DNA from: Colwellia sp.
GTDB taxonomy: Bacteria; Pseudomonadota; Gammaproteobacteria; Enterobacterales; Alteromonadaceae
Direction: 5' to 3'
NCBI GenBank assembly: GCA_002733765.1
Contig: NVWU01000015.1
Coordinates: 48,919-112,918 of the forward strand
DNA length: 64,000 bases
In this document: piece by piece, positions 6,162-21,761 of the stretch
Layout: each line of letters starts with the position of its first letter
How positions within the stretch are numbered: position 1 is the first letter of the stretch
Position numbers and translations under genes: made by a program
The notes under the pieces: model-generated
Told to the model about the DNA's origin: nothing
The model's input: the letters and a program-made list of their open reading frames with translations, nothing else
Databases searched by the model: none

Positions 6162-7376
6162 TCAAAAGCTATATACAAACCCCACATTAGCCCCTAAAGA
6201 GTACCAATTGACGCCGTTATATTGTGTGGTTAATACTGTATCATCAGCTAAAAATGTTGTATCAACTCCTTGCTTATGTGCTTGCCAATCTTGATACTTT
6301 ATTGAGAGGATGAAAGCGAGTTGTGCGCTTAATTGATACTCGCCTTTAACATCACCAATTAAGCCATAACCGACAGCTTTTTGAGTAAAACTTTTTGGAT
6401 GTGAAAAATCATTTCTTAAATTCCAGTTTGCTGTTGAATCATACTTTGCATAGTGATATTCAAGGCTTGCACTGAGTGAGAATGATTCGGTGAAGTTCAA
6501 TCTACTTTTTAATCCAACCCAAGGGCCAAACCATGTTGCATCATAGCTACTGTGTAAACCGGGAAATGGGCCAGTAGATGGGAGGGTAATATCAAGTGCA
6601 GGAATAGGAATAGATACTGTCTGATTGCCATCTGTTACTTTTAAATTTTGCGAATAATAACTTAACCCTATTTGAGGTCTAAAGTCGATATTCGGGTAGG
6701 TTGATTGTTCATTTAAAGGAACGGTCCAGTTATAGCCAGTTGAAGCTGATATGTCTAATACGGAGCCTTTATCGCCACTATTATTTGAACGTGAAAATTC
6801 AAAGGTTCGATTATCACCGAGGTAATCCGAATCCTGATTTTTACCGTTATAAATACTGCCAAAGAGAAGGTTTACATTGATCAGCCAATTTGATTCAAAC
6901 AACAGGGTTGTGCCGGCACTAATGGTGGCTATTTCAATGTCTTTCCAGGTTAATTCAGACAATATATTAGGCGTTCCATCTGGTCCGGCAATTGACCAAT
7001 CTAGATCATCCCGTCGATAACCCATGGCGATGTAACTTTCAGCTTTTATATAGGACAACGCGAGTTCTTCCTGTTCGTGAGGCTTTGCTCTGGTATAACG
7101 TTCAGCTAAAACCGCATTATTCTGCATTGTTGGTGAGTTATCAAATAAATGCACTTTAAGCAGGGGGGCTTGAGCGATGTGATTAACAACTTCTTTTTTC
7201 TTGCTCTGTTTAAATAAATGCATTTCAAGTAGGGGAGGTTGAGCAACTTGATTGATGCTTTCCTTTTGATCTTTTTTGTCAAAAATATGCATTGTTAACG
7301 GTGGTGCAGACCAAGTTACAGGGCTTAATACAAGCAGCGAAACGCCAATAATCCCATGAATATTTTTATTGGCCAT
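6162..7376 (-). CDS. Outer-membrane beta-barrel protein with N-terminal triple repeat, last gene of the filament cluster
   Basis: The protein has about 404 residues. A signal peptide (IIGVSLLVLSPVTWSA) is followed by three near-identical units of about 23 residues: PPLTMHIFDKKDQKESINQVAQ, PPLLEMHLF... and APLLKVHLF.... The rest has alternating aromatic/polar strands and ends in the terminal phenylalanine (GFVYSF) expected for BAM-inserted barrels. The strand pattern (LSELTWK, DYLGDNRTFEFSRS, STGYNW) recalls omptin-fold proteins such as the chlamydial Pom family, but I could not locate the omptin catalytic residues with confidence. The track start is a TTG; ATG 7376 with GAAGAG upstream is preferred, overlapping the secretin gene by 11 bases. 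The overlap places it in the filament operon, perhaps as a surface partner or substrate of the machine. Confidence 0.65.
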   Translation of the reverse strand: MANKNIHGIIGVSLLVLSPVTWSAPPLTMHIFDKKDQKESINQVAQPPLLEMHLFKQSKKKEVVNHIAQAPLLKVHLFDNSPTMQNNAVLAERYTRAKPHEQEELALSYIKAESYIAMGYRRDDLDWSIAGPDGTPNILSELTWKDIEIATISAGTTLLFESNWLINVNLLFGSIYNGKNQDSDYLGDNRTFEFSRSNNSGDKGSVLDISASTGYNWTVPLNEQSTYPNIDFRPQIGLSYYSQNLKVTDGNQTVSIPIPALDITLPSTGPFPGLHSSYDATWFGPWVGLKSRLNFTESFSLSASLEYHYAKYDSTANWNLRNDFSHPKSFTQKAVGYGLIGDVKGEYQLSAQLAFILSIKYQDWQAHKQGVDTTFLADDTVLTTQYNGVNWYSLGANVGFVYSF

Positions 7377-9450
7377 TAGCAAGTGACTCTTCAAACGACA
7401 AGGTTGATATTAAATACATATAGGTTCTATCATTTGTGTTGCCTTTGGGCGCTAAGTTACTATTCTCTATTGAAGATGCCAACCAGCGCCCTGCTATATG
7501 TTGATAATCTACTGTGACAGATTTTTCTGCTGTATTAATGACTTCAACAACAGTGACAAACATACCGTCACGTTCCCAACTAGCAACCGCTTTAGTATTG
7601 AAATTAGCGTTATTAAATAGTGTATTTATATCTGCATTACTAAACCTGACTGGTTGATAGTTCTTACTTCTTATTCGTTCAATATTAGGTATACGTATCA
7701 TATCAGCTGCATATTGACTCATGTTCATGTATAACTGCTGTTTATTAACTTGAGGTGGCAACTTTGTTATAGGTGCTTTTTTACCAATAAATTTATTTTC
7801 GAACGGTACAGTATCAGGATGGCCACGATTTAGATCTTGATAAAAACGATTGTCAGTTTTTCTTATTCGTTCACTTTCACTTGATCGGACAAGAATTCTT
7901 GGTGTTATCAGTAATACGATTTCTGTCTCTTGTTCACTTTCAACCGTGCTTTTAAATATATTACCTAAAATCGGTATTTCAGATAAAATAGGAACCTTCT
8001 GAATATTGCTGCTTTTTTTATGTCTAATTAAACCCCCTACCGCTACCGTTAAATTATTTTTTGCCACAACGGTGCCAGTTAATCTTGAGGAATTAACGGT
8101 GTCGACGGGTAAATTTAAAATACCACCGGCACCATCACTAATAGGTAAACTAGCACCGCCAGGGTTAATTTCTGAGCTTTCTTGTTCAAGTGCCAATGCC
8201 ACTGTGTTATCAGCATTGATTCTTGGCACAATACGTAAGGTAATACCTATTTCTTGTAATTCTGTTTCAGTCTCAATAAAACTAGGTGAAATGACAATAC
8301 CATTGTCAATGGTCGCAGGGTTAAAAGTAAAACCACGTACAAGTAAACTCTCTTCACCAATAAACAACTCTGTTTGGCGATGATTAGATGCTAGCACCAT
8401 TGGGTTGGACAGCACTTTGATACGTTTGTTCTTTTCTAAAAATTCAATGTTGGCACGTAAACGCGTATTTAAAAACTCATAAATAATAGAGCCTGAATTA
8501 GGGAGGGCATTATTACCGAGTTTTATTGGGCGGATAGACTGATTATTGCCACTAGGCTGTAATTCAAAATTAAATATTGAGGTAAAGTCATCGCCTAGTG
8601 TAATACTGATTATTTTCATTTCTAGCATCACTTGTGGTACGGCGATATCTGTTTTCTTCACTAAATACTTGATTGCCTTGAGCACAGTTTTATCATCAGT
8701 TCGCACAATAATCATACTGTGTTCATTGTTAACCGTAATGTAAATGGGCTGAACTTGGGCACTAACCTGTTCTAATACCTGAGCATTAAGTGTGGTGGCG
8801 CCTGTCATTTTCTGCGATAGCAGTTCAAATTGATCAATTGTTAATTCACTGGTATCGAAAGATTTATTGGTTGAATTACTTGTTGAGTTATTATCAGAGC
8901 GCGATGAACGATTATTATTCGTTGAGCGCGAGTTTCTAACATTGTTTGATGAACGGTTTGAATTACTATTGGTACTATTACGCGATGAGCTATTTGAGCC
9001 GCCTTCTATCTGCTCACCTAGCGATAAAATAACGCGACTGCCGTATAAGTCTTCAATAGATTGCGCAATAATTCTGACATTGGCATTTCTTACCTTAAAT
9101 ATTTCAATATGTTCGCTTTCACGTATCACCAAGTCTTTCGCATATTCTTCGCGTGTCATTAAACGATAGGTATTGGTGTCATCATCAAAGCGAAACCATA
9201 AATCAGTAATACGACTTATCGACTTTAAGGCATTTTTAACCGTGATGTTTTTCAAATGAATAGTGACTTTTTTCTTAGTTGCTGCTGGCGTGGCAATAAT
9301 ATTACTGTTTGATAACTCAGACAGTATTCGCACCACATCAATCAAGTTGGTATTATTAAACTCTATTTCTTTCACTTTAGCCGCAGCGATAACTGACTGA
9401 GAAAGTAGTAATAAACATATAATTTGAACGATTAAAATAAGCTGTTTCAT
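7366..9450 (-). CDS. Secretin (GspD/PilQ/MshL-like outer-membrane channel)
   Basis: Secretins form the outer-membrane ring through which type II substrates or pili pass. After a signal peptide (LIVQIICLLLLSQSVIAAA) comes a secretin/TonB short N-terminal (STN, N0) domain (about 25-95, 'NLIDVVRILSELSNSNII'). Next are N1-type repeats, and the C-terminal secretin domain (about 270-520) has VPQVMLEMKIISI, RIKVLSNPMVLASN and VAVGGLIRHKKSS...VPILSEIPILGNIFK. About 160 further residues follow with no family I recognise. A Ser/Asn/Arg-rich run (about residues 150-200) interrupts the N-domain region, which is unusual. At 694 residues it is nearer GspD/PilQ in size than MshL. No pilotin gene is adjacent. 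It lies between the PilP-like gene and the barrel gene. Confidence 0.88.
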   Translation of the reverse strand: MKQLILIVQIICLLLLSQSVIAAAKVKEIEFNNTNLIDVVRILSELSNSNIIATPAATKKKVTIHLKNITVKNALKSISRITDLWFRFDDDTNTYRLMTREEYAKDLVIRESEHIEIFKVRNANVRIIAQSIEDLYGSRVILSLGEQIEGGSNSSSRNSTNSNSNRSSNNVRNSRSTNNNRSSRSDNNSTSNSTNKSFDTSELTIDQFELLSQKMTGATTLNAQVLEQVSAQVQPIYITVNNEHSMIIVRTDDKTVLKAIKYLVKKTDIAVPQVMLEMKIISITLGDDFTSIFNFELQPSGNNQSIRPIKLGNNALPNSGSIIYEFLNTRLRANIEFLEKNKRIKVLSNPMVLASNHRQTELFIGEESLLVRGFTFNPATIDNGIVISPSFIETETELQEIGITLRIVPRINADNTVALALEQESSEINPGGASLPISDGAGGILNLPVDTVNSSRLTGTVVAKNNLTVAVGGLIRHKKSSNIQKVPILSEIPILGNIFKSTVESEQETEIVLLITPRILVRSSESERIRKTDNRFYQDLNRGHPDTVPFENKFIGKKAPITKLPPQVNKQQLYMNMSQYAADMIRIPNIERIRSKNYQPVRFSNADINTLFNNANFNTKAVASWERDGMFVTVVEVINTAEKSVTVDYQHIAGRWLASSIENSNLAPKGNTNDRTYMYLISTLSFEESLANGQ

Positions 9451-9459
9451 CTGATGTAA

Positions 9460-9954
9460 TTACCTTTGAACCCTAATTGAACCGAGCATGCCGGCTTCTA
9501 CGGTGACACTAAAACGCGTGATCTTGGTAATACGAATGGCACTATTAGGGGTAGCAGGATCAATATTTATTTCATCACCTTCGTGAATTAAATAGGTACG
9601 ATTATCATCAACTTCTAGTAAGGCGACAGGCTTATTATCTTTATTTGTATAGCCACGCAGGCGCATTTTGGGCAAGTTAGTCTTCGAAGGTGAACGCATA
9701 AACCCATAGCCCGCAGCACCAAGTGCACTTCCTTTGATTAACATCGCATCAAACATTAATGAGCTGGGCGTAAATGGATCTCGTATCGCTCGAATGGCTT
9801 CATATTGCTGTTGTGCATTCATGACATTATTTGTTGGTAATGAATTTGTTGGTAGTAGGTTGGTTTGCACTGCATTTATTGTTAATGGCACTAAGCTCGT
9901 ACTGACAATAATGAATAGTCTACAAAGTGATTTTTTATCTAATTTAATGTGCAT
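9460..9954 (-). CDS. PilP/GspC-like periplasmic link protein
   Basis: This 164-residue exported protein (hydrophobic segment LFIIVSTSLVPLTINA) has the size and pattern of PilP/MshK or the HR region of GspC. The sequence DPFTPSSLMF is followed by a small beta domain with LPKMRLRGYTNKDNKPVALLEV, YLIHEGDEI and a C-terminal SVTVEAGMLGSIRVQR. PilP-type proteins connect the inner-membrane PilN/PilO complex to the secretin. The position directly between the GspF-like and secretin genes supports that role. The gene is 2 bases from the GspF-like gene and 9 bases from the secretin gene. It lacks the lipobox of classical PilP and would instead be anchored or released by signal peptidase I. Confidence 0.75.
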   Translation of the reverse strand: MHIKLDKKSLCRLFIIVSTSLVPLTINAVQTNLLPTNSLPTNNVMNAQQQYEAIRAIRDPFTPSSLMFDAMLIKGSALGAAGYGFMRSPSKTNLPKMRLRGYTNKDNKPVALLEVDDNRTYLIHEGDEINIDPATPNSAIRITKITRFSVTVEAGMLGSIRVQR

Positions 9955-9956
9955 TA

Positions 9957-11177
9957 TTATCCGCCTACTAATGAAAATAAAGCTTGAAAAAAAGCGTAGT
10001 AAACGAAGCCCACCATCGCGCCAATAACTAAAATCATCACTGGTTCGATTAGCGCAGTCATACGTTTAATCGCAATATCAAGACGTTGCTCATAATAAAT
10101 GCCCATTTCTTGTAAAATTTTATCGAGACTACCAGTGCGTTCACCAACGGCAATCATTTGCGTCACCAGCACAGGAATTCTAGGATGCTGAAGGCTACTT
10201 GCCATATCTTTACCCGTTAACACTTTCTTAGCAGCATGTTGCATTTTGTCTGAAAATACGCGGTTAGTTAATAATTTCCCTGTGATTTTTAATGATTGAT
10301 ATACAGTGACACCACTGGCTAACAAGGTTGATAAAGCCCAGGTGACTTGCCCCATAGAGGCGGTGGTTAGCATGGGGCCAATCACAGGAATGCGTAGCGA
10401 AAGATAATCAATGATTAACCGGCCACGTTTGGTTTGATAAGTGAGTAGTAGCAGTACAATGAATACAATTACTACTGTAATGATCCAAATGCCATTTTGT
10501 TGAATATAATCAGAAGTATTAATCAATGCCTGAGTTGATGGCGGCAATTTTTTTCCTTGCCCAAGCAGGAAATCAGCAAACTTAGGTATAATTTTTAGCA
10601 TCATAAAAGCCGCAACACCAAGGGCGGCAATAACCACAATAACGGGGTAAATCATGGCATTAATCATTTGTGCACGCAGCGCAGATTTTTTTTCTAAATG
10701 GGTGGCTAACCGTTCCATAATTACGTCTAAATCACCAGTGTTTTCACCGGCGACCATCAGGTTAACTGCCATGTCAGGAAAGACACTAGGGTATGTTTTC
10801 ATGGCCGCAGATAATGTTTGGCCTGATTCGATATCTTTTAACATTAGCTTTGAGGTTAACCTCAAGCGAGCACTCGATATTTGGGTGTTGGTTAATGTTA
10901 AAGATTCGGTTACGGCTAAACCTGCTCGTAACATAAAGGCCATTTGTCTAAAAAAGAAAATGAGCGCAGACGGTGATACAGAACGTTGTGAAGCGAGCCA
11001 GTCAGAAAAATTCTCTTGGCCGCCAAAGCCGTCTTGCCCTCGGGCTGGTTTTATTGCTAATACGCGTAAACTGCGCTCTCGTAGCGCTTGTGTCGCAGCA
11101 TTAATATCAGCGGCTTGTTGTTTGCCCGTTAATTCATTGCCAGCGGCAGTTAATACCGTATAAGAAAATAATGGCAT
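9957..11177 (-). CDS. GspF/PilC-family inner-membrane platform protein
   Basis: This 406-residue protein has two T2SSF domains (about 70-195 and 270-395). Each ends in long hydrophobic helices (VIYPVIVVIAALGVAAFMMLKIIP; IEPVMILVIGAMVGFVYYAFFQALF). Family hallmarks include FFRQMAFMLRAGLAV, MAVNLMVAGENTGDLD and MIAVGERTGSLDKILQEMG. GspF/PilC proteins sit under the pseudopilus and transmit movement of the ATPase to the growing fibre. The N-terminus MPLFSYTVLTAAGNELTG is the usual start of this family. It is 2 bases from the ATPase gene on one side and 2 bases from the PilP-like gene on the other, so the operon assignment is secure. Confidence 0.93.
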   Translation of the reverse strand: MPLFSYTVLTAAGNELTGKQQAADINAATQALRERSLRVLAIKPARGQDGFGGQENFSDWLASQRSVSPSALIFFFRQMAFMLRAGLAVTESLTLTNTQISSARLRLTSKLMLKDIESGQTLSAAMKTYPSVFPDMAVNLMVAGENTGDLDVIMERLATHLEKKSALRAQMINAMIYPVIVVIAALGVAAFMMLKIIPKFADFLLGQGKKLPPSTQALINTSDYIQQNGIWIITVVIVFIVLLLLTYQTKRGRLIIDYLSLRIPVIGPMLTTASMGQVTWALSTLLASGVTVYQSLKITGKLLTNRVFSDKMQHAAKKVLTGKDMASSLQHPRIPVLVTQMIAVGERTGSLDKILQEMGIYYEQRLDIAIKRMTALIEPVMILVIGAMVGFVYYAFFQALFSLVGG

Positions 11178-11179
11178 GG

Positions 11180-12823
11180 TTACTCTCCTATCGCCTGACG
11201 CGTTTTAACAATCGTTACACCGCGCACTTCAGCAAGCGTGGTCATACCTTTTAGTACCTTTTGACAGCCATCTTCCCACATAAAGGTTAAGTTATGTCCT
11301 GCCGCTTGCTCTAGTGCTTCTTCGCTGCAGCCTTGTGAAACTAATCGCGCTAAACTTTCGTCAAACCACAATGTTTCAAATAAAGCTAAGCGACCTTTAA
11401 AGCCAGTGCCTTGGCAATTTGCACAGCCAATTGAGTCGAATAACGTCAGGGTTTTATCATTACAATCCAATTCGCTTAATTCATCATCCGTTGCCGGCCT
11501 TACTTGTTTGCAGTTGTTGCATAAGCGTCTTATTAGCCGTTGCGCAATTACCGCGGTCATGGTTGAGCCAATCAAAAAAGCTTCACAGCCAATATCAATC
11601 AATCGTGTTACTGCGCTCACAGCATTATTGGTATGTAAGGTTGAAAACACTAAGTGCCCAGTCATTGCCGCTTTTACTGAGACATCAGCGGTTTCATAAT
11701 CGCGAATTTCTCCTACCATTAACACATCGGGATCATGTCTAAGCAATGAGCGTAATGCTTGGGCAAAGCTAATTTTTAAACCAGTTTGTAGTTGTGATAC
11801 ACCGGGTATAACATATTCAATGGGGTTCTCAACCGTCATAATATTAATATCAGGTTTATTGATTTCTTGTAAGGCAGCGCACAAGGTGGTCGACTTACCA
11901 CTACCTGTGGGGCCGGTCAGTAAAATCATGCCATAAGGTTTTTGAATGGCTTGCCTGAACCGCTTAAGATCAGCGGCTAACATGCCTAAAGCAGTTAAGG
12001 TCATGCCGCCAGATTGTTGGCCCAATAAGCGTAAGGTAATTCGTTCACCTAATCGCGTTGGTGCCGTGGCAACACGAATATTAAATTCGCTATTGATGGG
12101 CGCAGCCAGTTTATAACTGCAGCCACCATCTTGTGGCTGACGTTGCTCGGCAATGTCTAAGTTGGCTAGCACTTTTATACGAGACACTAAGCCTGCCGCT
12201 ATGGTAGCATCGGCTTCTATTGGGTAATCACGTAACTTACCATCAATGCGTAACCTGACTCTTAGGCCTTCTTCTTCAGTAACAAAATGTATATCTGAAG
12301 CTTTGTTTAAAAATGCTTCTTTGATGATTTCATCGAGTAAATTAACCAGATCAATTTCATCGGTTGCACTGGCATCTGCTGCTTGGTTGGCATTGTGGTT
12401 AAACTGTCGTTTAATCAGCAAACTTAGGTAGTTAATATCAGTCATTGCCAGTGGCAGTAGCTGACCTAATAAGCGTTGAATAGTATCTATAGCGGTGCGA
12501 TCGGTGGGATCTGCAACCACCAAAAATGCCTTGTCGTTTTGCTTGACTGGTAGGATTAACTTACGCTTAACCAAGCTTACAGGTAACTTTTTAATTAAGC
12601 TCTCATCAATAGAAAGTGCCACGGGTTCTAAATATGACAAGCTGTTTTTCTCTGCCACTGCGCGATGTAAGCTGCTGATTGGCAAACGATAATGTGCAAG
12701 TGTCAGTTCAATAACAGAACAGCGTTTACGGCGTGCTTCAGCCTTTAGTTTATCTATTGTTGCTATGTCAATAAGCCCTGAATGAAGACCGGCCTCAAGT
12801 AATTTTTCGTCAGTTAACGGCAT
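11180..12823 (-). CDS. GspE/PilB-family assembly ATPase
   Basis: This cytoplasmic AAA+-like secretion ATPase powers pseudopilin assembly. The N-terminal T2SSE_N-type domain (about 1-150) contains 'LLEAGLHSGLIDIATIDKL' and 'FLVVADPTD'. The ATPase core has GPTGSGKST (Walker A, about residue 305), ENPIEY (Asp box), RSLLRHDPDVLMVGEIRD (Walker B) and STLHTNNA (His box). A C-terminal zinc module, CNNC ... CANC, is present as in GspE, MshE and PilB. No PilT-like retraction ATPase is in the window. Length (547) fits GspE/PilB. AIAQRLIRRLC marks the family's arginine-rich segment. It lies 2 bases from the platform-protein gene. Confidence 0.93.
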   Translation of the reverse strand: MPLTDEKLLEAGLHSGLIDIATIDKLKAEARRKRCSVIELTLAHYRLPISSLHRAVAEKNSLSYLEPVALSIDESLIKKLPVSLVKRKLILPVKQNDKAFLVVADPTDRTAIDTIQRLLGQLLPLAMTDINYLSLLIKRQFNHNANQAADASATDEIDLVNLLDEIIKEAFLNKASDIHFVTEEEGLRVRLRIDGKLRDYPIEADATIAAGLVSRIKVLANLDIAEQRQPQDGGCSYKLAAPINSEFNIRVATAPTRLGERITLRLLGQQSGGMTLTALGMLAADLKRFRQAIQKPYGMILLTGPTGSGKSTTLCAALQEINKPDINIMTVENPIEYVIPGVSQLQTGLKISFAQALRSLLRHDPDVLMVGEIRDYETADVSVKAAMTGHLVFSTLHTNNAVSAVTRLIDIGCEAFLIGSTMTAVIAQRLIRRLCNNCKQVRPATDDELSELDCNDKTLTLFDSIGCANCQGTGFKGRLALFETLWFDESLARLVSQGCSEEALEQAAGHNLTFMWEDGCQKVLKGMTTLAEVRGVTIVKTRQAIGE

Positions 12824-12832
12824 ATCATCATC

Positions 12833-13525
12833 CTATAACGCCAACACTAATTCAGTTTTTAAGGCTTGAGCATAACCACGTAATGGCGTGATGGCTTGTT
12901 GCTCTATTTTTAATCTGACCACAGTAACTTGCCAAGGTAAATTGTCTAATTCTTGAATAAAGGCGCGTATACTTCGGTATTGTCCAACGAGTTCAATGCG
13001 CTGTAACGGCCGGTAATAGAGTGTGCTAGGCGCCATTCTATCGAGCCAGCTATAAGAGGCAGGTAATGCGATATCTTTAGTGCTTTCAATTTTCGTGGTT
13101 GATTTTTTCTTCCTCTTTTTCTGAGCAATAACCTTTACCGCAGGTGCCTTACCTTCAATGCGTTCGTTAGCGGTAATGCGCACTTTAAGATCGCGTGCTA
13201 GTTGAGAAACCAATACTCTGAGTTCTTGGGAATCTATCGGTGCTAGACGTTGTTGCACACTAGTCGCCATATTACTAATGAGTGTCATGGCTTGTTCTTG
13301 ATCATCTAACTGAGAAATAAGTTGTTGAACATCTTGATCAGGTTCATTAGGAATTCTGGCCTTCAACAGCTTGCGTGCTGTTGTTTCAGCGCTGCGCTCT
13401 AGTGAAGTGATATCTTGATATTTAGGAATAAATCGCAATAGGCTATAAGCACCAAAAATAATGACAAGTACAGTGATCGCAATTAAAATTTGCTCACTTG
13501 TGGTTAACTTTGCCAACTTGTTCAT
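12833..13525 (-). CDS. PilO/GspM-like inner-membrane assembly protein
   Basis: This bitopic protein of 230 residues has one N-terminal membrane helix (about 12-30, ILIAITVLVIIFGAYSLL). A helical coiled-coil stretch and a C-terminal small alpha/beta domain follow (YRPLQRIELVGQYRSIRAFIQELDNLPWQV). That domain closely follows the PilO pattern 'L-P-L-x-x-I-x-I-x-G-x-Y-x-x-I-x-x-F-L-x-x-L-x-x-L-P-x'. PilO pairs with PilN in the periplasm to form the alignment complex. The gene starts inside the end of the PilM/N-like gene (ATGA overlap, 13522-13525) and ends 9 bases before the ATPase gene. A lysine-rich linker, KKRKKKS, lies in the middle. Confidence 0.78.
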   Translation of the reverse strand: MNKLAKLTTSEQILIAITVLVIIFGAYSLLRFIPKYQDITSLERSAETTARKLLKARIPNEPDQDVQQLISQLDDQEQAMTLISNMATSVQQRLAPIDSQELRVLVSQLARDLKVRITANERIEGKAPAVKVIAQKKRKKKSTTKIESTKDIALPASYSWLDRMAPSTLYYRPLQRIELVGQYRSIRAFIQELDNLPWQVTVVRLKIEQQAITPLRGYAQALKTELVLAL

Positions 13526-15291
13526 AATAGCGGCGTCCTATTTGATAAAGACTCAGCACTTACTAACTTTACAATGCGTAAGGTCACGGTAAAACCCTCT
13601 AAATTTAACGGGCCAGTTCGTCCTGCAACATTACTATCTAATATTTCAAGACCCCATGGCTCTGCTGCCTTCTTCAAGGTTTGGATAAATTGCTGGCCAG
13701 CCGTTTCTGATAATGCCCATGCTTGCAGGTTAAAGCTTTCAATTTCTATCCGATTATCTTTTTTTCGTCTTAGGCTGCGCAGCATAAAATTAGCTCGTTT
13801 ATCATATTCATCTATTGAATTAATGATAATGTGTTCACTAACGGCTCCTTGTAAAATACCAAGAATTACCTGTACCAACGCACTACGCTCTGGTAACTCT
13901 TCACCAAAAAAAGTAAAGCGCTGTTGTTCCCGTTGCTTATCTGACTTTCGGTCTTTTAACTCTTTTTTTCGCTGTTTTACTTGCTTAATATCACCGTTAA
14001 TTCGCTTCATGGCTGAATCAATAATTTGCCATCGGGTATCTATTTCATTTTTATGAGATTCGACAATACTACCCCGCACTAATAAGAACGCTTCAGCAAA
14101 TAGTATCAATAGCAAAATCACACTAAATAGTATGCCGCCTCTTATATTTGGTCGGTGTAATAGGGTAGGTAATGGCCCGCCTAAACGTACATGACTAAGC
14201 CAATTACTTTTTCCCATGCCTAAATAATGTAAACCTGCTCCCATCATGCCAGGGCTAGATTTTTCAGTGATAGCGTTATTTTCAATAGTAATAACGTCAC
14301 GATCTAAGGCGCTGGCTAAGTCGTGAATTGTAGTGTGATCGTTGGCAGACCAGTTGGCTAAATAGATATTGGCGTCATTAGCAACAGTCAAGGTATGAAA
14401 GCCTTCTAAACAGCGCTCAAATGTTTTTTTTGATGCGTCTAAATATAAATGTTGCTCGACAATATGATTGTCTTTGGTACGCATGGTAAATGACATGCTG
14501 CCATGTGATTCGATTAATACTTGTTCTTCAGCGGTATCCGTTAATAAACTTGCACTTGAGCCAGCCAGTGGATACATTGCTTGTAGTTTAACCCCTTGCA
14601 TCTGAAATACTGTGGTCCAACGCTGAAGTAGTGATTTAGTCACTGCGCTCACTTGCCATAAATACGTACCGGGAATATCACTGACTTCACCTTGAGCAGA
14701 CCAGCCACAGTCAATTAACTCATCATCTGATTTTAACCACTCTTGTCCTGCTAAACAGGCATTGAGTTGGCTACGCTTTATATAACCTAGTTCTTCAGCT
14801 AAATCACCAAAACGGCGTAATGAAAACTTTTCCATCAGTTCTAGCCCGCCGGCAGGGTTGGCTCTGCCTTGTTGCAAATCCATTACCGCATCGGCCTGCT
14901 CTTTGGTCATATAACCTCGAGCAATAAGTAAGTTGCCAACAGAGCATTGTGTCGCATGCTGAACTAATAACGGCTCTGCCTCCCAACGGATCAATTCATT
15001 CATTTGTGCTAATGGACGCGGTTTTTTAGGGTCTATTTGTAATTCAAGTAGGGTTGATAATACGGTCGGCGATAATAAAACAGCATCACCTCCTTCCCAG
15101 CCATCGTCTTTAAGACTTTTTATTACGTCGGCAACTGCATCAGCCATATCGGCTTGCTGCGATTCTGCTGTTTGCAATACCGCTAATTCATTACCAGCAC
15201 GGGTAAGCACGGCCGCACGCAGTAAAAAGCCATCGGTTTCGCACACTAAAATTGATTTAGCTTTACCGAATTTAAAAAGTGATTTAAGCAT
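13522..15291 (-). CDS. GspL-like PilM-PilN fusion with an inserted MshEN/T2SSE_N-like segment
   Basis: The N-terminal half is a PilM-like actin-fold region (starts SILVCETDGFLLRAAVL; contains LIRWEAEPLL). One membrane helix (about 385-410, GGILFSVILLLILFAEAFLLVRG), a charged coiled coil and a periplasmic PilN-type domain follow. In GspL the PilM- and PilN-like parts are fused in the same way. Unusually, residues about 120-185 carry two copies of a motif known from the N-domains of secretion ATPases: NLLIARGYMTKEQADAVMDLQQ and RRFGDLAEELGYIKRSQLNACLAGQ. In MshE-type ATPases this motif can bind c-di-GMP. The track start (15306) is less likely than the ATG at 15291, which overlaps the stop of the upstream pilin gene as TAATG. 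At 589 residues it is longer than ordinary GspL (about 400). Confidence 0.8.
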   Translation of the reverse strand: MLKSLFKFGKAKSILVCETDGFLLRAAVLTRAGNELAVLQTAESQQADMADAVADVIKSLKDDGWEGGDAVLLSPTVLSTLLELQIDPKKPRPLAQMNELIRWEAEPLLVQHATQCSVGNLLIARGYMTKEQADAVMDLQQGRANPAGGLELMEKFSLRRFGDLAEELGYIKRSQLNACLAGQEWLKSDDELIDCGWSAQGEVSDIPGTYLWQVSAVTKSLLQRWTTVFQMQGVKLQAMYPLAGSSASLLTDTAEEQVLIESHGSMSFTMRTKDNHIVEQHLYLDASKKTFERCLEGFHTLTVANDANIYLANWSANDHTTIHDLASALDRDVITIENNAITEKSSPGMMGAGLHYLGMGKSNWLSHVRLGGPLPTLLHRPNIRGGILFSVILLLILFAEAFLLVRGSIVESHKNEIDTRWQIIDSAMKRINGDIKQVKQRKKELKDRKSDKQREQQRFTFFGEELPERSALVQVILGILQGAVSEHIIINSIDEYDKRANFMLRSLRRKKDNRIEIESFNLQAWALSETAGQQFIQTLKKAAEPWGLEILDSNVAGRTGPLNLEGFTVTLRIVKLVSAESLSNRTPLL

Positions 15292-16898
15292 TATTGAATC
15301 GCCCATGTTAGTACTGAGTTATTCACTGGTAAGGTACTTCTTGGTATCAAACTTATACTCTTGGGGTTGTCGGTATTATTTATAGTGCCGTCATCACAAT
15401 GACCATCAAATAATTTCCCTTGTTCAACCCCTACTTCACAAACAATTGTGAAGGATTTTTCACCGCCACTAAAAGTGGATGAGGCAGGGATTGTTAAGGT
15501 ATTTCCGACCGCTGCAGGGGTATTGCTTGGAATGGTAAAGGTATCACCGGAAGCTATAGTGATAGTGTTGCCAGTTCGGATGAACGCTTGTGATACGGTA
15601 ATTAAGGGCTCTTGAAAAAAAACTGTTGTGTCAATAAGCTGCGGAGCCGTGCCGGTAAAAGTAATCGTTGCGCCATTAGGCAAGCTGACAGTATTAGTTG
15701 ATAAACCACTACCAATAGGGAGAATGATGGCAGGCTTGGTAAAGTTTTTGGCTGAGAGTATTGCTGGCGCAATGTAATGGTTGTTAATGGTTAAAGTTGT
15801 TGTGCCGCTGAAAGTGAGTGTATCAACAGGATCTCCGTTATTGCTTGTTAAGCTGCCATTTTCAGCTGTGTAGCTACTTGCTTGTATAGTTAATTTACAA
15901 TCTGGTACGCAGTGACTACCAATAATAAACTGACTAGATACACTAGCACTAGCACTAGCACTATCGGTATAGGTAATGACAGTACCTGAAGTAAGGGTGA
16001 CACTGTCGTTAGGGGAGCCAGTTGTTAATGTGGCACCAGAAACAAATTCGAGTGTGTCGTTATTCTCAACTTCCATTGTGCCGTATTTAGAGAGTAGCAA
16101 GGTGTTTTCACTGGGGAAGCTATTGCTAAGTTGAGCGGAGCTATCGCGTTCTGCAGTCGTATCTAGTTCACTGTTTGTATAACTTAAAATAATCCCCTCT
16201 GACGGTGAACTTAGTCGAAGGCGTAGTTCATCTTGCTCAATAACAATATGGGTGGCTTGTTCATTTGTGAAAGTAACATCAATATTTTGCCAATCAGCGC
16301 CGAGTGTTACTTGGTAATCAGCAGTATTAACAATATTATCTACGCTGATATCGTCAATAGCATCAGCTATATTGAAACCCTTACTTGTTATTGTTATTGC
16401 CCCAACAGTTGTTGTGAAATCTAAATTCCAACCAGAATTTTGCCAATCATCACTGCCTTTACCTGAACCATCGCCAGAGTTACCATAACCATCACGAAAA
16501 TGTACTTCACCGCTTAGCTCACTATTTCCCATTAAATAAGGGCCACGCCAGCCGGCCCACACTTGTGAGTAAACATCTTGCTTCCACGGAGGCAGGGGTT
16601 CTGTATTAAAGCAATCTATTCGGCTAAGTAATTCACGTAAGCACTTAGGCAAGCGTCCCATATCTGCGGCAAAACCACTGATTTCAGGGCGACCGTTAAT
16701 GGTTCTGCTAGTATCACCAATAATGGCGGTGCGAATCATTTTAAGACGCTGTTTGGTTGCATCATATTTTGCCTGATCTTCAACGCCTTGTGTTAAAAAT
16801 AGTGTTGACGATGCCATTAAAGCCAATAGAAATAGTACTAGCACTATTTCTAATAAGGTGAAGCCTTGCTGGCGAGATAAGCTTAATTTAATAGACAT
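15291..16898 (-). CDS. Oversized prepilin-like protein with beta-rich repeat region (candidate tip or minor pilin)
   Basis: A class III prepilin signal is clear: MSIKLSLSRQQG followed by FTLLEIVLVLFLLALMASSTLF, so prepilin peptidase should cut after a 12-residue leader. The region to about residue 150 resembles the other pilin genes (YDATKQRLKMIRTAI; WAGWRGPYL). The remaining 380 residues are Thr/Ser/Asn-rich and repetitive, for example SVTLTSGTVITYTDS and GNTITIASGDTFTIPSNTP, suggesting a beta-solenoid or stacked-strand domain. Two late Cys-containing segments (HCVPDCKL; DGHCDDG) could form disulfides. Minor pseudopilins are normally 150-330 residues, so 535 is exceptional. A large C-terminal domain on a pilin-like stem is typical of tip-located adhesins, but that role is an inference. 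It overlaps the preceding pilin gene by 16 bases. Confidence 0.8.
   Translation of the reverse strand: MSIKLSLSRQQGFTLLEIVLVLFLLALMASSTLFLTQGVEDQAKYDATKQRLKMIRTAIIGDTSRTINGRPEISGFAADMGRLPKCLRELLSRIDCFNTEPLPPWKQDVYSQVWAGWRGPYLMGNSELSGEVHFRDGYGNSGDGSGKGSDDWQNSGWNLDFTTTVGAITITSKGFNIADAIDDISVDNIVNTADYQVTLGADWQNIDVTFTNEQATHIVIEQDELRLRLSSPSEGIILSYTNSELDTTAERDSSAQLSNSFPSENTLLLSKYGTMEVENNDTLEFVSGATLTTGSPNDSVTLTSGTVITYTDSASASASVSSQFIIGSHCVPDCKLTIQASSYTAENGSLTSNNGDPVDTLTFSGTTTLTINNHYIAPAILSAKNFTKPAIILPIGSGLSTNTVSLPNGATITFTGTAPQLIDTTVFFQEPLITVSQAFIRTGNTITIASGDTFTIPSNTPAAVGNTLTIPASSTFSGGEKSFTIVCEVGVEQGKLFDGHCDDGTINNTDNPKSISLIPRSTLPVNNSVLTWAIQ
15941..15963 (-). repeat. Hexanucleotide tandem repeat inside the large pilin gene
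   Basis: The unit CACTAG/ACTAGC is repeated nearly four times (cactagcactagcactagca) and encodes the SASASVS segment. Because the unit is six bases, copy-number change would lengthen or shorten the protein by two residues without shifting the frame. Confidence 0.7.
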
Positions 16899-17677
16899 AA
16901 CACTTGATCCAAGGCTTGGCCATTTATATCTACTGGTGTATTGCAGATATCATCACTAGGCTCATCATGATCTTCAAATACACCATCTTCACCTGCACTG
17001 ATAAGGCGCGGTTGATAGACCGTTGGCGTATTGGTGATATCAACTAATAACACGTAAGGCGTTCCGGCTTTGTTAAGTACGTTACTCGTAGTTTGAATTG
17101 ACCATTCAACGCCGGAGTTTGTTTGATCGGCAGTATAGGGATCAGCAATCGCCCAGACAGGGTTAGTAATATCAGCTAGGTTTACGGTATTAGCGCTAAG
17201 CGTTAAATAGCCATTTTTTCGTTGTAGATAGGGGCCCTGCCAACCGCGTTTGGTATCTGGGTTCCAACCATTGTCTAGGGGGTCTTCAAATAACATCCAA
17301 AAATTTGCCGGGTGTTGGCACCACGCTATTATTGCTGCCGTGGTTACGCCGGCTTCAGCAGGAAAATTAAACTCACTATTAGGTTGGGTGATAGAGCCAC
17401 CATTTACGTCATCAGTACAATCATAGCGGCCTTGCGTGGGAAAGCTCTTAGTGCCACTGTCTTTACGAAACTGGATTAACGCTTTATGTATTTGAGTCAT
17501 TTCAAACTTAGCGACATCATAACGGCTTTGGTCTTGCACACCGTCATAGCTTGTTATTGCTACGGTTGCGGTAATGGCCATTAAGGAAATTACCGTTAAT
17601 AATTCCATTAAGGTAAAGCCACTTTGGCTACTATGCTGTTTGAAATTTTGTAAAAGAAAAAACAATAAACACCCCAT
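16883..17677 (-). CDS. Prepilin-like protein, GspG/GspH-type minor pseudopilin
   Basis: The prepilin cleavage site is visible as HSSQSG followed by FTLMELLTVISLMAITATVAI. The mature stem continues into a globular domain with RYDVAKFEMTQIHKALIQFRKD, then KRGWQGPYLQRKNG and a loop LISAGEDGVFEDHDEPSDD. That acidic loop sits where GspG proteins bind calcium, so a Ca site is plausible. Four or more cysteines (YDC, WC, DDIC, VLC) may form disulfides. The leader is 20 residues and oddly hydrophobic (CLLFFLL); the true start could be one of the in-frame TTG codons just downstream, since no Shine-Dalgarno precedes the ATG. It is separated from the leading pilin gene by a 180-base gap with a terminator-like structure and overlaps the next gene. 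Confidence 0.8.
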   Translation of the reverse strand: MGCLLFFLLQNFKQHSSQSGFTLMELLTVISLMAITATVAITSYDGVQDQSRYDVAKFEMTQIHKALIQFRKDSGTKSFPTQGRYDCTDDVNGGSITQPNSEFNFPAEAGVTTAAIIAWCQHPANFWMLFEDPLDNGWNPDTKRGWQGPYLQRKNGYLTLSANTVNLADITNPVWAIADPYTADQTNSGVEWSIQTTSNVLNKAGTPYVLLVDITNTPTVYQPRLISAGEDGVFEDHDEPSDDICNTPVDINGQALDQVLCLLN

Positions 17678-17774: not shown

Positions 17775-17862
17775 GAATGATGGATACCCGATAAACCATC
17801 ATTCATCACAGCAGAAGCATTCACAACGCTCTGATTAATAGTCCGACTAGTAACTATTAATC
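17775..17862 (-). other. Two further hairpins in the 3' region of the leading pilin gene
   Basis: GAATGATGG (17775-17783) pairs with CCATCATTC (17796-17804). GATTAATAGT (17833-17842) pairs with ACTATTAATC (17853-17862), and that second arm includes the pilin stop codon. Together with the terminator at 17740-17768 this gives three stacked stem-loops within about 120 bases. Such structures often protect the 3' end of an abundant upstream message from exonucleases, which is an inference here. Confidence 0.65.
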
Positions 17863-18948
17863 ATCATTCGTTGAAGCAGTTGCATCAGCAGCGATTTGGT
17901 CAATAGTACGACCTTCAGGGCCAACAACAGCGATTAAACGCGCTCTTCCTAATATTTCATCTGCCGTAATAGTGCCATCATCATCAGCATCATGACCTAC
18001 TTGAAATAAAGCAATGGCACGAGCGTAATTATCTCTCGGGTTAATATTATTAGTACCCACGGTAGGCACTTGTGCAATTTCAACCGCATTACCTAAGGTT
18101 GCACCAGGAACTTCTTTACCTATACCTAAAGCCACGACTAAATCACAGCCTTCAGAGTCAAGGCCATCACTGATAAGATTTAAAACGGCATTATCAGAAG
18201 TTGAATTACCATTAAAGTCATCTGTTATGTCAACAGCGGTAGCAAAGTTTACTTCGCAACCATCAGTACCGTTACCTCCTGATGGCACGATAGAAATGGC
18301 CGCACCAGCGGTGCCTATAGCAGCATCATCAAACTCCATTGCACCGGTGTCGGTAAATTCAATTTCAGAGCCTGGGTTAGCACTCACTTCAGGGTAACTT
18401 TCATTCATTGCTAGATTAGGTACGAAACCGTCATTCCAAGTAGTTGTACTTTGTACTGACTGTAGCTCTTCTAAGCCAGCTTCTCTTAATGAGCTAAAAA
18501 TTGCAGCAGCGGTCGTAGATGCAGTAGCAGTAACTGTCTCTGCTTGCGCAAAAGTTAATTGACCAAAGAAATCTCTTGTTTCAGTAGACATCAATTGCAT
18601 AGCACCTGCACCGGCAGTTAATACACCATCAACATTTGCTAAGTTATCAAACTGCTCTGGATACTCTCCAACAATAGAGCGGTAATTACGTAATGAGCCT
18701 TCTAAGGTATTTACTGCCGTTGCTGCTGAGGCGTCACGGGCATTTTCACCAGCACCATCATAAGCAACCAGTGCAGCGGTTGATAAGGTAGCTAATAAGG
18801 TGATTACTACTAATAACTCTAGTAAGGTGAAACCTTTTTGTTTCGCTTGTAATTTTTGTGCTTTAGCACGCATAGCATCATCTTTAAGTATTGATACATT
18901 GGCATTTTTGAACTTGGCAATCGCTATTTTTAGTTGATGAACATTCAT
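17857..18948 (-). CDS. Leading prepilin-like protein with an EF-hand calcium loop (probable major pseudopilin)
   Basis: The cleavage site is QKG followed by FTLLELLVVITLLATLSTAALVAY, an archetypal type IV prepilin N-terminus. The globular region is acidic and Ala-rich. Near the C-terminus it contains DADDDGTITADE, a perfect match to the EF-hand loop DxDxDGxIxxxE. Start choice matters. The track start (19008) gives a 59-residue leader without ribosome binding site. ATG 18948, behind GAGAGA, gives 39 residues and is my choice. ATG 18873 would give a typical 14-residue leader (MRAKAQKLQAKQKG) but has only a weak site. First position in the operon and the downstream terminator-like hairpins suggest that this is the abundant subunit. 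At over 300 mature residues it is large for a major pseudopilin. Confidence 0.82.
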   Translation of the reverse strand: MNVHQLKIAIAKFKNANVSILKDDAMRAKAQKLQAKQKGFTLLELLVVITLLATLSTAALVAYDGAGENARDASAATAVNTLEGSLRNYRSIVGEYPEQFDNLANVDGVLTAGAGAMQLMSTETRDFFGQLTFAQAETVTATASTTAAAIFSSLREAGLEELQSVQSTTTWNDGFVPNLAMNESYPEVSANPGSEIEFTDTGAMEFDDAAIGTAGAAISIVPSGGNGTDGCEVNFATAVDITDDFNGNSTSDNAVLNLISDGLDSEGCDLVVALGIGKEVPGATLGNAVEIAQVPTVGTNNINPRDNYARAIALFQVGHDADDDGTITADEILGRARLIAVVGPEGRTIDQIAADATASTNDD

Positions 18949-19066
18949 CTTATTATCTCTCTTTTGGGGGCATGCCTCATCTGTCTCGTACAGACTATTG
19001 GTCATCAATTTTTGTTGTTTTTGTCAGATGTAAACCCACTTCACACTCTGTTTCTTATCTACGATT

Positions 19067-19800: not shown

Positions 19801-21114
19801 ATGAGTATACGCGCACTTATCAATCTTAGAATTATTGCCTCGGTGATATTAATTTTAATATTCAGTGCCCTTATTGCTATTTGGCAGGCGAGAAACTCAG
19901 TAGAAAAAGAGGTACATTCCTCAATTAATTTAGCCGTGCAAATGATTGAGTTTGGCTTTAATCAACTGCCTTCCTCAAGAGTAGAAAATGATGCCTGGTT
20001 ACAAAAAATAGCCACTATGCAGCCAGTAAGGCATTTGCATATTTCTATTGCAGATAATAATAGCGAGCGAAAAAATAATCTTCAGGCTCTTTATCTAGAT
20101 GATGAGACAAATACCACACCATACTGGTTTATTAAGGCTGTTACGGTGGATTTTTTTACTCATAATTATGATATTAAAAGTGCCGATGGTTCAATAAAAA
20201 CCATTTTTATTACTGCCAACCCGATGGATGAAATTAGTGAGGCATGGGGAGAAACTAAAGCTTTTTTTTGGTCTATTGTGCTAATGCTTTTAATTATGTT
20301 TTTTACCGTTAACCTTGTTTTTAATTCTATGTTGCAGGCTGTGAAAGCTATTTTGTCTGGTCTTCGTCAAGTTGAAACCGGTCATTTTGATCATGTGTTG
20401 CCTCACTTTAAAATCAGTGAGTTTGATGCGATTGCGAGAGAAATTAATGGCATGTCGCTAGCATTAAAAACAGCGCAACAAAATAACCAAGCTTTGGCTC
20501 GCCATACTATGCAAATTCAAGAAACAGAAAGACAAAATATGTCTCGTGAATTACATGATGAAATGGGGCAATCGTTAACGGCAATTAAGGCGATGGCAGT
20601 AACATGCCAGCAAGTCGATACTGATGTTAAAGCAGTGACAAGCTCTATTGTTGATATTTGTGATCATTTATCAGTGATTGTCCGCTCAATGATGAGAACA
20701 TTGCATCCACTTAGTTTAACTGAGCTTGGTTTAGGGGCAACACTGTCTGAGCTGGTGAGAGAATGGCAGCGATGTAGCACAGATCTCCAGTTCGACTTAA
20801 ATTATGATGACGAGTTAGAAAAACTGAGTCATGATATTACCATTCATGTCTATCGAATTGTTCAGGAGTGTTTAACCAATGTTGTTCGACATGCAAATGC
20901 TTCTGAGGTAGCTATTTTAGTGGTTAAACGTGGTTATCAAGTATGGATTACCGTATCGGACAATGGCCAAGGAAAGCAATTAAATTCTCCCGGTTTTGGT
21001 TTGTTAGGAATGCGCGAAAGAGCAGAAAATTTAGGGGGCACATTTGAATTTGAGTCGGTCCTAAATGATGGTGTTAATGTTGTTGTACAATTACCTTACT
21101 GGGAAGATAACTAA
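19801..21114 (+). CDS. NarX/UhpB-type sensor histidine kinase (HisKA_3)
   Basis: This 437-residue membrane kinase has TM1 at about 8-28 (LRIIASVILILIFSALIAIW) and a periplasmic sensor of about 120 residues. TM2 lies at about 150-172 (SIVLMLLIMFFTVNLVF), followed by a HAMP linker and the HisKA_3 dimerisation box with the phosphorylated histidine in MSRELHDEMGQSLT. The C-terminal HATPase_c domain has the N-box IVQECLTNVVRHANA and the G-boxes DNGQG and GFGLLGMRERAENLGG. Its partner regulator starts in the stop codon of this gene. The short periplasmic domain has no family I recognise, so the signal is unknown. Divergence from the filament cluster suggests, but does not prove, that it controls that cluster. 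Confidence 0.88.
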   Translation: MSIRALINLRIIASVILILIFSALIAIWQARNSVEKEVHSSINLAVQMIEFGFNQLPSSRVENDAWLQKIATMQPVRHLHISIADNNSERKNNLQALYLDDETNTTPYWFIKAVTVDFFTHNYDIKSADGSIKTIFITANPMDEISEAWGETKAFFWSIVLMLLIMFFTVNLVFNSMLQAVKAILSGLRQVETGHFDHVLPHFKISEFDAIAREINGMSLALKTAQQNNQALARHTMQIQETERQNMSRELHDEMGQSLTAIKAMAVTCQQVDTDVKAVTSSIVDICDHLSVIVRSMMRTLHPLSLTELGLGATLSELVREWQRCSTDLQFDLNYDDELEKLSHDITIHVYRIVQECLTNVVRHANASEVAILVVKRGYQVWITVSDNGQGKQLNSPGFGLLGMRERAENLGGTFEFESVLNDGVNVVVQLPYWEDN

Positions 21115-21761
21115 TGAAAACAGACAAAATAAAAGTCTTATTAGTTGATGATCACGCGGTTGTTAGAGCTGGTTTTAGAATGTTATTAGCTTCTCAAGAT
21201 TTTATTGGTGATATTGTTGATATTGAGCGAGGTGAACTTGCCACCAAAGAATATCAACGCTTTCAGCCAGACGTGGTAGTGATGGATTTATCTATGCCTG
21301 GCATTGGTGGCTTAGAAACTATTCGTCGTCTTTATAAATATGATGCCAAGATACTTATTTTAGTTTACAGCATTCATGATGAAACAATTTATGTTGAACG
21401 TGCTTTAGAGGCGGGCGCAAAAGGCTATGTTAGTAAAAATAGTGCTGCAGAAGTACTAGCGACAGCTGTTGCAGTTATCGCGAGTGGTAAGCGTTATATT
21501 GAACAAGGTTTATTACCTGAATTAAATGATGTACGCTTCAGCGAAACTAACAACTCGGACCATACGCTCAATGTATTATCACCCCGAGAATTTGATGTGT
21601 TTCGCTTATTATCAAAGGGTCTAAACGCGCATAATATTGCTAATGAGCTTAGCCTTAGTTATAAAACAATTTGCAATTATAATACTCAAATTAAAAATAA
21701 ATTAAATGCCAATACATCAGCTGATCTTGCTCATATTGCTATGGTACATAACATTATTTAA
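21114..21761 (+). CDS. NarL/FixJ-family response regulator
   Basis: The receiver domain (1-120) has the acidic pair in VDDHAVVR, the phosphorylated Asp in VVMDLSMPG and the conserved Lys in GYVSKNSA. After a linker, the LuxR-type helix-turn-helix (about 152-210) reads LSPREFDVFRLLSKG then NIANELSLSYKTICNY. The size (215 residues) and architecture are those of UvrY/UhpA-type regulators. The ATG overlaps the TAA of the kinase gene by one base, so the two are translationally coupled. It probably binds the divergent region upstream of the kinase and the filament genes. The Thr/Ser switch position is occupied by Ser (LVYSIHD), which is tolerated. Confidence 0.9.
   Translation: MKTDKIKVLLVDDHAVVRAGFRMLLASQDFIGDIVDIERGELATKEYQRFQPDVVVMDLSMPGIGGLETIRRLYKYDAKILILVYSIHDETIYVERALEAGAKGYVSKNSAAEVLATAVAVIASGKRYIEQGLLPELNDVRFSETNNSDHTLNVLSPREFDVFRLLSKGLNAHNIANELSLSYKTICNYNTQIKNKLNANTSADLAHIAMVHNII

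Follow-up and report, generated by a model that had tools for sequence, protein, structure and literature searches.

MshEN domains have been reported from motor ATPases and from a number of signalling proteins. No PilM or GspL protein is named among the MshEN partners in the text of PMC5013675, and a literature search of partial coverage revealed no paper on such a domain in a protein of either type. In MshE, one half of c-di-GMP is held by Arg9, Gly11, Leu25, Leu29, Gln32 and Leu39, with Arg9 stacking the guanine, and the other half is served by Leu10, Leu54 and Leu58 (PMC5013675). Arg38, Gly40 and Gln61 are assigned to this second half by equivalence of the two MshE motifs, between which lies a spacer of 5 residues (PMC5013675). 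MshEN_N alone, in the absence of MshEN_C, is sufficient for binding of c-di-GMP at 0.35 µM (PMC5013675). The GSPII-A domain of Thermus thermophilus PilF, one motif of which is degenerate, does not bind c-di-GMP even after restoration of the motif residues and has been proposed to act as a landing pad; the MshEN motif as such tolerates some variation (PMC12002112). Complexes in which motor N-domains are docked on PilM/GspL proteins have been reviewed (PMC8389850).

The window, by which we mean the whole analysed stretch of 64,000 nucleotides, encodes a GspL/PilM-like platform protein within an operon made up of the following genes:

15291 to 16898, 16883 to 17677 and 17857 to 19008, minus strand: three prepilin-like proteins (N_methyl)
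13522 to 15306, minus strand: GspL/PilM-like platform protein of 594 amino acids (open reading frame, AlphaFold2 model and fold matches)
12833 to 13525, minus strand: PilO/GspM-like protein, directly downstream of the GspL-like gene (PF04350, E = 0.0012, below cut-off)
11180 to 12823, minus strand: GspE-type ATPase (PF05157 at residues 62 to 139), with neither the RLG nor the Gln ligand residues in its N-terminal region
9957 to 11177, minus strand: GspF/PilC-like inner-membrane protein (profile matches)
9460 to 9954, minus strand: PilP/GspC-like small protein (operon position; PF04351 weak, E = 0.025)
7366 to 9450, minus strand: GspD/MshL-like secretin which carries an additional DUF3438-type domain at its C-terminus (profile matches)

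The gene order of GspE, GspF, GspM/PilO-like protein, secretin and pseudopilins is found in this operon and in related clusters. Orthologs of the platform protein are present in a Colwellia MAG (L008), an Alteromonadales isolate (L009) and a Methylophaga MAG (L010). The additional domain of the secretin comprises residues 571 to 690 approximately and is of the DUF3438/TIGR03749 type, a family whose name refers to integrating conjugative elements. The secretin gene is adjoined by that of an outer-membrane-type protein (6162 to 7394, minus strand), to which proteins matching Pom (PF17251) correspond in L008 and L009. A divergent two-component pair is found at 19801 to 21761 on the plus strand, its histidine kinase having a periplasmic domain of the LapD/MoxY type and its response regulator being of the LuxR type; a similar pair is situated beside the clusters of L008, L009 and L096.

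The real start of the GspL/PilM-like protein may be Met6 (position 15291), at the equivalent of which the Methylophaga ortholog begins. An AlphaFold2 model of the full-length protein, calculated from an alignment of 11 sequences, has a mean pLDDT of 78.6 and reveals an actin-like cytoplasmic part of the PilM/FtsA type harbouring the insert described below, a long helix starting at residue 386 which includes a hydrophobic membrane segment, and a periplasmic alpha/beta domain. The best matches of the cytoplasmic part obtained with Foldseek and VIA-align are PilM, FtsA and EpsL/GspL (Foldseek with the full-length model: E = 1e-12 for PilM 5eoy and 5e-8 for GspL 4pht; VIA-align: Z = 17.9 for PilM 2ych and 13.6 for EpsL 1yf5). 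In a scan with Pfam and NCBIfam no GspL or PilM model matched any of the 11 family members; PilN (PF05137) matched two of them weakly.

A conspicuous feature of the model is a helical insert of about 70 residues within the actin fold. Four helices (residues 123 to 130, 135 to 145, 166 to 172 and 178 to 191) are placed between a helix formed by residues 99 to 121, which continues almost straight into the first of them, and a strand formed by residues 198 to 207. In the full-length model the region of these four helices mostly exhibits pLDDT values of 76 to 90, dropping to 54 in the spacer. Judged from the order of the elements, the insert appears to be located within the small extra subdomain of the PilM/FtsA fold. 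The preliminary description of this DNA had proposed an MshEN-like motif pair at 14737 to 14946, which on the minus strand correspond to residues 121 to 190 of the open reading frame, and the four helices expected of an MshEN/T2SSE_N fold are present in the predicted secondary structure. Residues 98 to 198 folded alone and without an alignment give a low-confidence model (pLDDT 54) which matches no PDB entry. The fold-match lists of the full-length model are filled by the actin fold and contain no MshEN chains, an absence which is not counter-evidence. Both peptides quoted in the preliminary description, N125 to Q146 and R164 to Q188, were found, and the insert is divided as follows:

14872 to 14943, minus strand: motif I, S122VGNLLIARGYMTKEQADAVMDLQ145, a degenerate MshEN motif (helices 123 to 130 and 135 to 145)
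14815 to 14871, minus strand: spacer of 19 residues, 146 to 164 (motif alignment)
14743 to 14814, minus strand: motif II, R165FGDLAEELGYIKRSQLNACLAGQ188, a near-complete MshEN motif (helices 166 to 172 and 178 to 191)

All 11 close family members that were recovered carry the insert, always at one and the same site, and the motifs occur in every close homologue found. Besides the orthologs mentioned above, the insert is kept in members from G247, G314, G354, G441, G977 and G984 and in a paralogue cluster (L006) situated on contig C15 of the genome of the window. Among 369 Gammaproteobacteria genomes, five contain insert-bearing matches and one (G415) contains a remoter relative, in two copies, which is devoid of the insert. 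When a query lacking the insert was used, all strong matches were still split at the insertion point, the remote G415 pair being the only one without an insert. The G415 protein (L016) aligns continuously across this point, and its fold is uninterrupted without the insert. Relatives of the GspL-like protein were not found in the plasmids and viral contigs searched. The genome of the window harbours a second, distant cluster (L022, contig C15, 24000 to 43900), in which a separate GspL-like protein with the insert is encoded along with three ATPases of the T2SSE type, one of them PilT-like. In one family member (L013, G441:C6:31285-33014) the GspL-like protein is encoded in two frames, owing either to a true split of the gene or to a sequence error.

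The relationship of the insert to MshEN_N becomes apparent from profile comparisons. Each of the 11 family members is hit by the NCBIfam model NF053729 (c-di-GMP_motif) with an E value of 0.1 or less, the best being 9.4e-5; in the window protein the model aligns to residues 124 to 146 with E = 6e-4 and 19.5 bits, which is under the curated cut-off of 38 bits. A profile-profile alignment with 24 canonical MshEN_N domains (hhalign) yields a probability of 97% and a P of 5e-11, the latter being that of a single pairwise comparison and not calibrated to a database search, with both motifs in register. Four other parts of the GspL-like protein reach about 0 (under 1%) in the same kind of comparison. 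Searched against all PDB sequences, the profile of nine family members matched only MshE and PilF GSPII entries, namely MshE 5htl over residues 121 to 188 including both motifs (E = 0.009) and PilF with E values from 0.055 to 0.54, and these matches vanish once the insert is cut from the profile. No match to PF05157, which represents the MshEN_C region, was obtained in the GspL-like protein of the window. The N-terminal region of the cluster's ATPase aligned with the insert at an hhalign probability of 0.7%; recent copying of that region therefore does not seem to be the origin of the insert. We regard residues 122 to 188 as a diverged MshEN_N domain (GSPII N-subdomain), a relationship which is well supported.

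With respect to the residues that contact c-di-GMP in MshE, the two motifs differ clearly. In motif I of the window protein Arg9 is replaced by Ser and Leu25 by Ala while Gln32 is kept. Throughout the family the Arg9 position is occupied by Ser, Leu, Thr, Cys or Asn and the Leu25 position by Ala, Arg or Val, so that both original residues are lost in all 11 members; Gln32 is retained in five, including the window protein, and replaced in six. Motif II of the window protein contains all five residues serving the second guanine (Arg38, Gly40, Leu54, Leu58 and Gln61). Arg38 and Gly40 are invariant in the family, Gln61 is present in ten and Leu54 in nine of the 11 members, and position 58 is Leu or Phe. 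The equivalents of Gly11 and Gly18 are retained in most members. The spacer, 11 to 19 residues in length across the family, is two to four times too long for a site of the MshE kind. Canonical two-motif binding of c-di-GMP has probably been lost in this insert, as far as can be judged from its sequence. Of what had been proposed initially, the location of the motif pair in the platform rather than in the ATPase stands, the GspE-type ATPase of the same cluster lacking the ligand residues; a c-di-GMP site of the MshE kind is not supported.

We consider it reasonably likely that the insert is a diverged MshEN_N-type docking or control module which resides on the platform instead of on the motor. 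As half of the signal-binding site is lost, such a pad is more plausible than a standard sensor. A domain type which in MshE-type systems sits on the motor ATPase would here provide a surface for docking or control at the cytoplasmic side of the platform. It is at this side that PilM/GspL proteins are known to receive the N-domains of motors, and the contact to a putative partner would be made through the well-kept motif II.

The preliminary description had gone further in suggesting that the platform, rather than the motor, might be the control point, the platform protein being a true c-di-GMP receptor by virtue of its insert. We consider this unlikely. It agrees with the homology to the MshEN_N c-di-GMP domain, with the near-invariance of Arg38, Gly40 and Gln61 and with the sufficiency of isolated MshEN_N for binding, as well as with the GspE-type ATPases of the ten clusters examined, which feature neither RLG nor Gln at the ligand places (30% against MshEN_N). 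The substitutions in motif I, the length of the spacer and the score of the window protein under the NF053729 cut-off, however, argue against it. PilF GSPII-A, which has undergone comparable losses, fails to bind (PMC12002112), and the helix of residues 99 to 121 running into the first motif helix is reminiscent of PilF-A, whose site is blocked by an elongated helix. Yet, since the ligand residues of motif II are under constraint, a partial or shared site is still conceivable, and binding in some form is possible given that motif II, Gly11 and Gly18 are kept in most members and that the motif tolerates variation. In such an arrangement, which we regard as improbable, two platform subunits of the GspL/PilM ring would hold one symmetric c-di-GMP molecule, each contributing a half-site for one guanine via motif II, and the nucleotide would then link up the platform and not act on the motor.

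That the segment belongs to the ordinary helices of the GspL/PilM fold and resembles MshEN motifs by convergence is very improbable. We built a position matrix for 24-mers from 21 canonical MshEN_N domains whose loci had been found with NF053729. Within the whole protein motif II is the best and motif I the second-best 24-mer. Motif I scores -1.5, a value reached by 6.3% of shuffles, and is by itself not significant; in addition, helical hairpins of the GYLTxEQ form are common. In contrast, motif II scores 18.3 bits, while 2000 shuffles average -8.4 and do not exceed 11.5, and the in-register pair scores 16.7 compared to a maximum of -5.5 in 1000 shuffles. Chance resemblance is ruled out for motif II and for the pair, although not for motif I alone. 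The tandem in-register profile match, the restriction of the PDB matches of the family profile to MshE and PilF, and the continuous fold of L016 are equally at variance with convergence. The tandem of RLGxx..G..xxxxLxxxLxxQ motifs with MshEN_N-type homology is thereby substantiated, as is the initial observation that motif I is the less complete one. A weak match to the Fumarase C C-terminus (PF10415, E = 0.022) at residues 117 to 145, seen in three of 11 members, falls below the cut-off and concerns motif I only; we take it as a shared helical-hairpin pattern, which would fit convergence as well.

Finally, the conservation of the insert bears on its being used at all. Averaged over all pairs of nine divergent members, the identity amounts to 0.40 in motif I, 0.49 in motif II and 0.18 in the spacer; most other parts of the protein range from 0.19 to 0.32 and only the ELIRWE helix (0.50) matches the level of the motifs. 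A codon comparison between the window protein and L008, L009 and L010 gives nonsynonymous/synonymous ratios, as raw counts uncorrected for site numbers, of 0.00, 0.10 and 0.19 in the motifs and 0.39, 0.69 and 1.53 outside the domain. The coding sequences thus indicate purifying selection on the insert. That it is a non-functional relic carried along, as the degenerate motif I might suggest, is hardly to be expected in view of these low ratios and of motifs kept between members whose overall identity is about 22%.

With its MshEN_N-type domain in the platform and motors devoid of the ligand residues, the family constitutes a natural experiment on MshEN roles beyond c-di-GMP binding, which bears on the docking surface between motor and platform and on whether half a site still senses. 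Compared to GspL (EpsL 1yf5, 4pht) and PilM (2ych, 5eou), the window protein shares the actin-like cytoplasmic fold, the GspL-like membrane topology and the gene order beside GspM/PilO-like protein and GspE, but differs by its insert and by matching no Pfam model of either family. With the MshEN_N domain of Vibrio cholerae MshE (PDB 5HTL; PMC5013675) it has in common two consecutive 24-residue motifs forming helix pairs, Gly11 and Gly18, most motif II residues and a profile match extending over both motifs. In contrast to MshE, the domain is inserted in the platform and not in the motor, its spacer is 11 to 19 instead of 5 residues long, Arg9 and Leu25 are absent and the platform protein has no PF05157 match. 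PilF GSPII-A of T. thermophilus (PMC12002112), for which the landing pad has been proposed, likewise is an MshEN-type domain with one degenerate motif and a helix continuing N-terminal to the first motif. It is, however, part of an ATPase and accompanied by a C-terminal subdomain, and the more degenerate motif is motif II in PilF but motif I in the platform insert.
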